Shown: in pieces, positions 4,656 to 17,419 of the stretch
How the letters are laid out: the number at the start of each line of letters is the position of its first letter
Position numbering within the stretch: position 1 is the first letter of the stretch
Assembly: GCA_900696685.1 (NCBI GenBank)
Contig: CAADHA010000075.1
Location: forward strand, 1 to 64,000
DNA length: 64,000 bases
Direction of reading: 5' to 3'
DNA from: an uncultured Planctomycetota bacterium
Lineage (GTDB): Bacteria; Planctomycetota; Phycisphaerae; Phycisphaerales; UBA5793
Position numbers and translations under genes: made by a program
The notes under the pieces: model-generated
The model's database searches: none
Seen by the model: only the letters and a program-made list of their open reading frames with translations
What the model was told of the DNA's origin: nothing

Positions 4656-4812
4656 AATCGCCGCACTGCACAAGTCGCGCGCCGGCTCGCGACAGGCTTG
4701 TGCACGCCGCTCCGGCGCACGACGCTGTCCGGCGATCGCGGCCCCGCGTCGCGTCGCGGCCCTACCATTTCATCAGCCGACGCCGATCTCCCGTTTCAGC
4801 AGGAGCCGTTCG

Positions 4813-5934
4813 ATGATCCGCATGATGACCATTGCGCTGGCGGCCCTGGCCGTTCTTCCCCTCGCGGGCACTGCCTCGCCTCCGCTGAGCGACGCGATCA
4901 AGCGCTACGAGCCGATCGAGTATCAACTCATCATCGAGGGCCGCGTGACCGCCTATCGCGACCGCATCGAGGCTGAGAACCAGTACCAGTTGACGCTTGA
5001 GGGAGCGCCGCTGGTGTTTCCCCTGATTCCCGACGGAGCATACCACACGATCGACATGGCGCGCCTCAAGGCGACGCTGGAACTTGACGACGTCGCCGTC
5101 GAGTCCCAGTTCGAGGTGCTGCCGACTTCGCAGGCCGACGGCCGCCTCGCCCGTTTCGTGATCCCCAAGTTCAGCGGCAAGCACATTGAGTTCTTCCTCG
5201 ATGAGTTCGTCACCTCCTACAACGCGCGCGTCGATGAAGCCAGGCTCCGCGCCATCCCCTGGACGGAATCCTGGCCCCCGGAAGTCTCGGCCGAGCGCCA
5301 GCCGCAGCGCTATGTCGAATCGACCAGCGAGGAGGTCAAACAACTGCTCGAACGTCTGACGCGAGGCAAGCACAAGGACGTCGCCCCGTTTCTACTCGGG
5401 AAGGAACTGGCGCGCCAGGTCGTGAACAACTTTCAGGTCAGCGGCAAGAACTACTACAACGACCAGAACGGGCAGTTCGCGGGCATCGAGGTCGAGGGCG
5501 CGGTCAAGGCGATCGAGAAGATGCGCGGCACCTCCCACGACGCCGTCTGTCTCTACGTCGCGCTCTGCCGCGCCTCGGGCCTGCCCGCACGGCCTGTGAT
5601 CGGCATCGACATGAAGGACAAGTCCAAGGAACTCATCTCCTGGGCCGAGTTCTTCGTCCCCTCCGCGGGCTGGGTCGCGGTCGATCTCCGCCGCCTCTTC
5701 AAGGCGCCGGGGCGGGCGCACGACATCATGCGCGAGTGGCCGGGCGTGGGGAGCAACGATGAACTCAACTTCCTCGTTCCGATTTCATATCACTACCACC
5801 CGCCCGCCGGCGTGCGGGCCGAGGGCCGCGCCCGCAAGCCGCTGTTGTGGGGCTGGCAGCCGGTTCCCGTCTCCGTTCCCTGCGATCAGGTGCTGAACTG
5901 GCGCATTTTCAAGGCGCCCAAGCGCGGCAGTTGA
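4813..5934 (+). CDS. Exported transglutaminase-like protein, catalytic Cys and His replaced
   Basis: 373 residues with a signal peptide (MIRMMTIALAALAVLPLAG). The C-terminal half carries a transglutaminase-like core: MRGTSHDAVCLYVALCRASG then LPARPVIG (residues 237-264), SWAEFFVPSAGWVAVD (276-291). In active members the first block reads G-x-C and the second begins HAW. Here the nucleophile position is Ser241 and the His position is Ser276, while Asp291 is kept. It therefore looks like a non-catalytic transglutaminase fold, perhaps a binding protein. The N-terminal 160 residues are beta-rich, as in other planctomycete transglutaminase proteins. AGGAG lies 7 bp before the ATG. If Ser241 acted as a nucleophile it could be a weak hydrolase, but I see no evidence for that. 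Confidence 0.75.
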   Translation: MIRMMTIALAALAVLPLAGTASPPLSDAIKRYEPIEYQLIIEGRVTAYRDRIEAENQYQLTLEGAPLVFPLIPDGAYHTIDMARLKATLELDDVAVESQFEVLPTSQADGRLARFVIPKFSGKHIEFFLDEFVTSYNARVDEARLRAIPWTESWPPEVSAERQPQRYVESTSEEVKQLLERLTRGKHKDVAPFLLGKELARQVVNNFQVSGKNYYNDQNGQFAGIEVEGAVKAIEKMRGTSHDAVCLYVALCRASGLPARPVIGIDMKDKSKELISWAEFFVPSAGWVAVDLRRLFKAPGRAHDIMREWPGVGSNDELNFLVPISYHYHPPAGVRAEGRARKPLLWGWQPVPVSVPCDQVLNWRIFKAPKRGS

Positions 5935-16087: not shown

Positions 16088-16116
16088 AGCCCCCGCCGGA
16101 AGTTCCGGCGGGGGCT
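16088..16116. terminator. Strong GC-rich terminator hairpin
   Basis: AGCCCCCGCCGG and CCGGCGGGGGCT form a perfect 12-bp stem around AAGTT. It lies 36 bp after the protease stop and 37 bp after the selenoprotein stop on the opposite strand, so it probably serves both converging genes. Confidence 0.75.
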
Positions 16117-16152: not shown

Positions 16153-16377
16153 TCAGACAAAGGACTTCAGTTGCTCGAGCAGTTTCGCGTTGTCGGGAAA
16201 CTCGCCTGTTTCCGACTTGCTGTAGATGAGTTTGCCGTTGACGGTGACGTCAAAGACGCCGCCTGAGCCTTCAATCAACTCAGCCGTTACCTTGAATCTC
16301 TTCCTGATCTCATCCGCCAGACCGGCGGCTCGGGGACGGTAGTTTCACATCCCGCAGTACTTGATCGACACTTTCAT
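16153..16377 (-). CDS. selW: SelW-like selenoprotein (Rdx family), UGA decoded as selenocysteine at codon 11
   Basis: On the minus strand from the ATG at 16377 the frame reads MKVSIKYCGM, then TGA (16345-16347), then NYRPRAAGLADEIRKRF and on to KLLEQLKSFV with a TGA stop at 16153. With the first TGA read as Sec, the 74-residue product has the thioredoxin-like CxxU motif (Cys8-Gly-Met-Sec11) at the exact position of the CxxC/CxxU motif of the SelT/SelW/SelH (Rdx) family. The rest also fits: RPRAAGLADEI, GSGGVFDVTVNGKLIYSK, GEFPD. CCTCCTT (AAGGAGG on the coding strand) lies 7 bp upstream of the ATG. A SECIS-like hairpin follows the TGA. It is a small redox protein, presumably interacting with thiol partners. 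It lies downstream of map and would be missed or called a pseudogene by standard gene callers. Confidence 0.88.
16314..16328 (-). promoter_or_regulatory. Candidate bacterial SECIS hairpin
   Basis: Starting 17 nt after the Sec TGA, CCGCC-GGUCU-GGCGG forms a 5-bp all-GC stem with a 5-nt loop whose first two bases are G (22-23 nt after the TGA). Bacterial SECIS elements lie immediately 3' of the UGA inside the reading frame, and published rules ask for a small apical loop with a G among its first two bases about 16-37 nt downstream. This hairpin meets both rules. Confidence 0.65.
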
Positions 16378-16453
16378 GGCCCGGCCTCCTTGTCGCCAGT
16401 TTATCGCAGCAGTGGGGGGGCCGCGTCGCGCCCGAGCGCGGCGGGGCAGCACA

Positions 16454-16543: not shown

Positions 16544-17419
16544 CTACCCCACGATCATCGGGAGAGCCTCCAGCCCGGCGGTCAGAACGCGCGGGCCGCT
16601 TGCCGTGATCAGCACATCATGCTCGTAGTGAACGCTCAGGCTCCCGTCCGCGGTTCGGATAGGCCACTGCCGCGGTCTCTGCACAACCTCGCTTGTGCCT
16701 GCGGCGATGATCGGCTCGACGGCCAGCAGAAGGCCTGGCACGAGTCGAAACTGCGCATCGGGCCAGTCGCCGGGATAGGGAGAGACGGCATTGGCCAGGT
16801 GCGGCGGATCGTGGAGGTGCTTTTCGCCGCAGCCCAGCCCGTGCCCGCCGAGGCGCTCGACGCAGTGAAAGCCGTATTCGACTTCAACGCATTGCTGCAC
16901 AGCCTGGGCCCAGCGGATGAGGGGGTATCCGACCTGGAGTTGCTCGACGCCGCGGCGCAGCGCTTCAATGCCGCACTCGCAAAGCCTGCGGGCCTCGGCC
17001 GAGGCCTCTTCGATGATGTAGGTCCAGGCGGCGTCGCCATTCCATCCTCGGTGCCGCACGCCGATGTCGACTGAGATCACGTCGCCTCGCTTGAGCGGCT
17101 CGATGGTCATTCCTGCCGTGCCGTGCACGACCACGTCGTTGACGCTCAGGCAGGCATAGGAGGGGAAAGCGGGATACCGGCCTGTCGAGTAGTGGAGGAA
17201 CGCGCTCACTGTGCCGAGGCGGTCGAGCGTCTCGGCGACCATGCGGTCGATCTGCGCCAGCGTCAGACCCGCGCGGAGGCGCGGCGCGATGAAGTGATGC
17301 GTCTCGACCACGAGTTCCGCGGCGCGCGCGGCCAGAGGGATGTCGGCTTCGCGAAGCACGTCGGGCGATCGTAGCGATCCCGCAAGAGCAGTGCGACTCA
17401 CACAGACCCGGCGATTCAC
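16544..17419 (-). CDS. map: Methionine aminopeptidase, type I
   Basis: 291 residues. All five metal ligands of the pita-bread fold are present: Asp118 (SVDIG), Asp129 (NGDAAWT), His193 (GGHGLG), Glu235 (AVEPI) and Glu266 (HYEHDV). His99 (VVVHG) is also conserved. The cytosolic enzyme removes the initiator methionine from nascent proteins. The annotated GTG start at 17419 gives an N-terminus about 15-20 residues longer than usual; the family alignment begins near SPDVLREAD, so a start around codon 18-21 is possible. It lies 52 bp downstream of a large secreted-protein gene on the same strand and upstream of selW. Confidence 0.94.
   Translation of the reverse strand: MNRRVCVSRTALAGSLRSPDVLREADIPLAARAAELVVETHHFIAPRLRAGLTLAQIDRMVAETLDRLGTVSAFLHYSTGRYPAFPSYACLSVNDVVVHGTAGMTIEPLKRGDVISVDIGVRHRGWNGDAAWTYIIEEASAEARRLCECGIEALRRGVEQLQVGYPLIRWAQAVQQCVEVEYGFHCVERLGGHGLGCGEKHLHDPPHLANAVSPYPGDWPDAQFRLVPGLLLAVEPIIAAGTSEVVQRPRQWPIRTADGSLSVHYEHDVLITASGPRVLTAGLEALPMIVG

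Follow-up and report, generated by a model that had tools for sequence, protein, structure and literature searches.

A predicted SelW-like selenoprotein gene with an in-frame UGA codon and a covarying SECIS hairpin in an uncultured phycisphaeral planctomycete

The window analyzed here is the whole stretch of 64,000 nucleotides, located on contig C75 of the source genome (G000), and its minus strand carries a short gene of the SelW-like (Rdx) family (Table 1). Read on that strand, the gene consists of an ATG followed by nine codons, an in-frame TGA, 63 further codons and a TGA stop, and translation across the internal TGA gives a product of 74 residues, MKVSIKYCGM-U-NYRPRAAGLADEIRKRFKVTAELIEGSGGVFDVTVNGKLIYSKSETGEFPDNAKLLEQLKSFV. 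The first-pass annotation had proposed a hidden selenoprotein at this position with a TGA at the CxxU site, and a second reading of the minus strand confirmed that codon 11, within the motif YCGM-TGA-NY, is the U of CGMU and that the frame stays open from the ATG to the terminal TGA. The Shine-Dalgarno sequence that the annotation had described as good was found as GGAGG ahead of the ATG. Its statement that the gene is invisible to standard ORF calling agrees with the standard-code ORF list, in which there is no ORF of 60 or more amino acids in this frame. The gene is readily overlooked by gene callers, and represents a positive case of a gene that was missed by ORF listing and recovered by eye from raw sequence.

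Table 1. Locations of the SelW-like gene and its associated features, of the Sec cluster, and of further candidate selenoprotein genes. Locations without a contig or locus name are positions in the window.
Feature	Location	Strand	Basis or remarks
SelW-like (Rdx family) gene, predicted selenoprotein	16153..16377	-	74 codons plus terminal TGA stop; profile matches, conservation
Predicted Sec codon UGA (codon 11), second redox residue of C8-G-M-U11	16345..16347	-	alignment
Shine-Dalgarno GGAGG	16385..16389	-	7 nt upstream of ATG; similar sites in congeners
Candidate bSECIS apical hairpin CCGCC-GGUCU-GGCGG	16314..16328	-	loop 21 nt after UGA; covariation
Upstream neighbor, type I methionine aminopeptidase-like (named by eye)	16544..17419	-	ORF list; outside the mechanism
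G+C-rich inverted repeat GCCCCCGCCGG-AAGTT-CCGGCGGGGGC	16089..16115	.	between two convergent genes; read from sequence
selD	C48 30682-31611	same as cluster	347 bits
selB	C48 31778-33670	same as cluster	376 bits over positions 2-577 of 581
selA	C48 33844-35208	same as cluster	522 bits
tRNA-Sec (selC)	C48 35285-35380	same as cluster	anticodon TCA (UCA)
Thioredoxin/TlpA-like WUGPC candidate selenoprotein genes	L165 at 2319; L164 at 562, 1585		
UxxU SelW-like loci (candidates)	L183-L191, L193, L194, L196, L197		L189 and L183 are the same genes as L062 and L076

The gene lies between a convergent subtilase-like gene and a methionine-aminopeptidase-like gene, both of which were named by eye, and the order subtilase-like gene, SelW gene, methionine-aminopeptidase-like gene and next gene is the same in four congeners. 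As read from the sequence, the inverted repeat between the two convergent genes is a probable shared terminator. For profile searches the TGA of the read-through protein was entered as Cys. The protein matched the Pfam Rdx model PF10262 (E = 2.8e-21, 76 bits against a cut-off of 22.6), the NCBIfam model NF041051, ‘SelT/SelW/SelH family (seleno)protein’ (91.1 bits, cut-off 88), and TIGR02174 (64.1 bits, cut-off 34.2). An AlphaFold2 model based on a 12-sequence alignment (pLDDT 92.4) predicts a thioredoxin-like fold with a strand (residues 3-8), the CGMU loop (C8-U11), a helix (14-28), three strands and a C-terminal helix, which places CxxU between strand 1 and helix 1. The top PDB matches of this model in Foldseek were SelW-related proteins (2fa8, TM 0.90; mouse SelW 2npb, TM 0.74), followed by thioredoxins.

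The position of the TGA was then compared among homologues, with order and class membership of the genomes taken from kinship tables; the closest relatives that bear names are for the most part Phycisphaerae MAGs. Among order-level relatives the gene was present in 11 of 121 genomes, and each of the 12 matches contained exactly one TGA, located at the aligned Sec column in all 12. In the class sample the gene was present in 60 of 298 genomes, with one internal TGA in every one of the 66 matches and an additional TAG inside the matched stretch in two of them. A scan of named contigs provided 80 more loci from planctomycetes, Pseudomonadota, Acidobacteriota, Verrucomicrobiota, Desulfuromonadales, Fictibacillus and others. 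The results showed that the aligned codon was TGA in 122 of 122 loci examined from many phyla, a set in which some genes are repeated, having been fetched twice, and which holds 105 distinct downstream sequences. Since the search model spells Sec as Cys, TGA was not favored by the search. A wider search of the phylum with the Pfam Rdx profile again gave mostly matches with one TGA; eight fetched matches were listed without it, comprising three with CxxC, four without the motif and one that does have a TGA, hidden because the match started past the active site. The alignment check for Cys or Sec that the first-pass annotation had suggested shows TGA throughout the column in this group, with no mixture of Cys and TGA codons; Cys is found at the aligned site only in distant Rdx members.

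These comparisons also bear on whether the locus is a pseudogene, i.e., a SelW gene of the Cys type inactivated by a nonsense mutation in the codon of its active-site cysteine. A single base change turns TGC or TGT into TGA, and gene callers would show only a truncated frame; yet all congeners, and homologues from many phyla, have the TGA at this one column, the frame is intact with dN/dS of 0.09-0.26 (congener pairs at dS 0.2-0.9), the covariation of the SECIS hairpin described below is conserved, and the genome contains Sec machinery. Judged by these substitution ratios the SelW-like frame is under purifying selection, and given that the TGA is conserved and that this selection extends downstream of it, the pseudogene reading is refuted and retains a negligible probability. 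Likewise, a chance origin of the TGA is excluded by its occurrence in the same column of every order homologue together with the dN/dS values, in agreement with the earlier argument that it is not a random nonsense mutation. Decay or frameshifts in close relatives, which the first-pass annotation had named as counter-evidence, were not seen, the gene being intact, constrained and in possession of its TGA in these genomes. An assembly error at the TGA is unlikely, since independent assemblies agree.

Codons 6-10 past the UGA (GCC GCC GGT CTG GCG) and the base that follows them make up the candidate bSECIS hairpin. According to the published limits (PMC13188914), a bSECIS has a stem of 4-16 bp, a loop of 3-9 nt with a G within its first two positions, a spacing of 16-37 nt and an MFE no higher than -7.5 kcal/mol. 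The hairpin has a loop of 5 nt that begins with GG, a stem of 5 bp and a spacing of 21 nt, all within these limits, and its energy is -8.2 kcal/mol alone and -9.5 kcal/mol in 26 nt; among distinct homologues, 72% attain -7.5 kcal/mol when the energy of the hairpin alone is taken. A hairpin within the minimal limits arises by chance in approximately 11% of random window stretches, and the 55-nt fold from the UGA showed no stability above shuffles (z = 0.17), with an MFE structure that differs from the SECIS hairpin. Given this chance rate and the unremarkable plain fold, the case for a SECIS element rests on covariation and not on energy. In the 105 distinct sequences, columns 21 and 33 (third bases of codons 6 and 10) pair in all 105, compared to a mean of 72.6 and a maximum of 83 in shuffles, which ignore kinship, and the pairs are CG (81), GU (15), UA (5), GC (2) and UG (2). 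Columns 24 and 30 (third bases of codons 7 and 9) also pair in all 105 (shuffle mean 92.7, maximum 97), as CG, GC, UG and UA pairs that include six G-C reversals. Variant pairs recur across unrelated phyla; for example, gammaproteobacteria and planctomycetes both have G-U, and the G-C reversal is shared by Fictibacillus, an acidobacterium and a gammaproteobacterium. Since the covarying sites are mostly synonymous, the pairing is not explained by protein constraint, and this wobble-site covariation provides comparative support for a predicted SECIS element beyond what folding energy alone gives. For a Cys-type comparison the phylum search yielded only three CxxC homologues, a set too small and too divergent to demonstrate loss of the SECIS; in one of them a hairpin of different sequence occurs by chance.

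We searched the source genome (4.32 Mb in 215 contigs, 94% complete with 4.23% contamination) for the genes of selenocysteine synthesis and insertion. A cluster in the order selD-selB-selA-tRNA-Sec occupies 4.7 kb of a single strand of contig C48 (30682-35380), and the selD at its head itself has an in-frame TGA, in the motif NCAGU (near 4683-5612 of locus L142 on the same contig). The first-pass annotation had predicted SelA, SelB, SelC and SelD outside the window and had considered that a genome without Sec machinery would speak against its reading; this prediction of machinery it could not see came true, with all four found together and the tRNA-Sec carrying a UCA anticodon. SelB with a nearby tRNA-Sec was also found in two congeners (G001 and G004), and a tRNA-Thr(CGT) lies approximately 1.2 kb from tRNA-Sec in G000 and G004 alike, which indicates that the cluster is not on a stray contig. 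In the class sample a SelB match (E ≤ 1e-60) was present in 59 of 60 genomes with the SelW-like gene versus 48 of 238 without it (Fisher p = 2e-31, uncorrected for phylogeny), and the sole genome with the gene and without a SelB match, G345, is 84% complete in 750 contigs. Only two genomes of this sample (G140 and G278) were seen to have the SelW gene no more than a few kb from selB. As read from their sequences, all SelW-like genes found in the class are of the Sec type, and they hardly occur outside genomes with SelB; a SelW-like gene should therefore be a good marker of Sec use in the class.

If UGA were read as another amino acid, e.g., Trp or Cys, via a code change or a suppressor tRNA, the frame would likewise stay open; but the same gene also terminates at UGA, its congeners end in TGA, TAG or TAA, as do homologues in this and other lineages, tRNA-Sec (UCA anticodon) and SelB are present, and the hairpin beside the codon covaries, all of which makes such reassignment exceedingly improbable. 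An assembly that combines a UGA gene from one organism with a Sec cluster from another is hardly credible either: the genome is fragmented and partly contaminated to the extent given above and the two lie on separate contigs, but G001 and G004 each have both SelB with tRNA-Sec and a TGA-bearing SelW gene, the tRNA-Thr(CGT) spacing is common to G000 and G004, and the gene order around SelW is common to the four congeners.

Taking the gene, the conserved UGA, the hairpin covariation, the complete Sec machinery and the predicted fold, which come from sequence, we are highly confident that the window gene is a functional SelW-like selenoprotein gene whose UGA codon 11 would be decoded as Sec via SECIS, SelB and Sec-tRNA-Sec, and whose product is a probable thiol oxidoreductase. 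In the proposed mechanism, SelA would convert Ser-tRNA to Sec-tRNA-Sec using selenophosphate from SelD, and the SECIS hairpin, within the coding sequence 21 nt past the UGA, would recruit SelB and Sec-tRNA-Sec so that codon 11 is decoded as selenocysteine, while the terminal UGA would serve as stop. The product would adopt a compact thioredoxin-like fold, in which strand 1 and helix 1 are followed by three strands and a final helix and the loop joining strand 1 to helix 1 contains Cys8 and Sec11; it would most likely act as a thiol (selenenylsulfide) oxidoreductase. Actual insertion of Sec, the redox reaction and the redox partners of the protein are what we infer from these data.

The source genome contains at least six candidate selenoprotein genes, comprising the window gene, a second SelW-like gene, three thioredoxin-like genes and selD. 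The second SelW-like gene (C84:43613-43825, locus L145) has its TGA in YCVQUNY and is 48% identical to the window gene, and the three thioredoxin/TlpA-like genes (one on contig C89 and two on C56) have TGA at the first redox position, in WUGPC. None of the six PF00384 molybdopterin oxidoreductase matches in this genome has an internal TGA, and thus there is no formate-dehydrogenase-type selenoprotein among them. In another genome a divergent Rdx-like protein with a TGA in the motif RCFFUPG was observed (L177, G589:C134), which perhaps belongs to another SelW-like subfamily. Searching the order of one Verrucomicrobiales genome revealed SelW-like genes with two TGA codons in 13 genomes; YUGMUNY or a similar motif, with TGA at both redox positions, was present in 13 of the 20 loci fetched. 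In these UxxU genes the two TGA codons are 9 nt apart and are followed by one shared hairpin, the same as that of the CxxU genes. We consider it somewhat probable that this Verrucomicrobiales-type clade of 13 genomes has Sec at the first redox position as well, which would make its SelW a UxxU protein whose active site may form a diselenide. No description of this form was found in the literature searched, of which coverage was incomplete, and the table of a 2026 review gives one Sec only for the SelW-like family and does not list UxxU (PMC13188914). The window gene itself is of the ordinary CxxU form.

Bacterial SelW-like selenoproteins were already listed by 2006 (PMC1794560), and no other prokaryotic selenoprotein family is as numerous as SelW-like in the marine GOS data, where it has 427 Sec and 56 Cys forms (PMC2398784). 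SelW genes have previously been missed by annotation in Epsilonproteobacteria (PMC4607533), Sec use has been described in planctomycetes (PMC4807772), and the 2026 review of prokaryotic selenoproteins describes SELENOW-like proteins as CxxU with one Sec, ‘predicted with high confidence’ (PMC13188914). Compared to the epsilonproteobacterial SelW of Campylobacter and relatives, the phylum differs, while the NCBIfam model matched here is named SelTWH_Campy. Mouse SelW (2npb) and the Cys-type bacterial Rdx proteins 2fa8, 3dex, 2obk, 2ojl and 2p0g are related to the window protein by sequence and in Foldseek; of the Cys forms from bacteria, 2fa8 and 3dex carry CxxC in place of CxxU and show approximately 30% identity. 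In eukaryotic SelW the SECIS element lies in the 3′UTR. In comparison with the bSECIS of E. coli fdhF, the apical GGUCU is identical and starts at +22 in fdhF and +25 here, whereas the stem sequence differs and here encodes part of the first helix of the SelW-like protein. Given that bacterial SelW-like selenoproteins have long been described, the window gene does not represent a novel type of system. It resembles them (PF10262, NF041051) in its scores above cut-offs, its CxxU motif, its predicted fold and a SECIS element directly after the UGA, with no essential difference, and represents a planctomycete (Phycisphaerae-like) member of this family.
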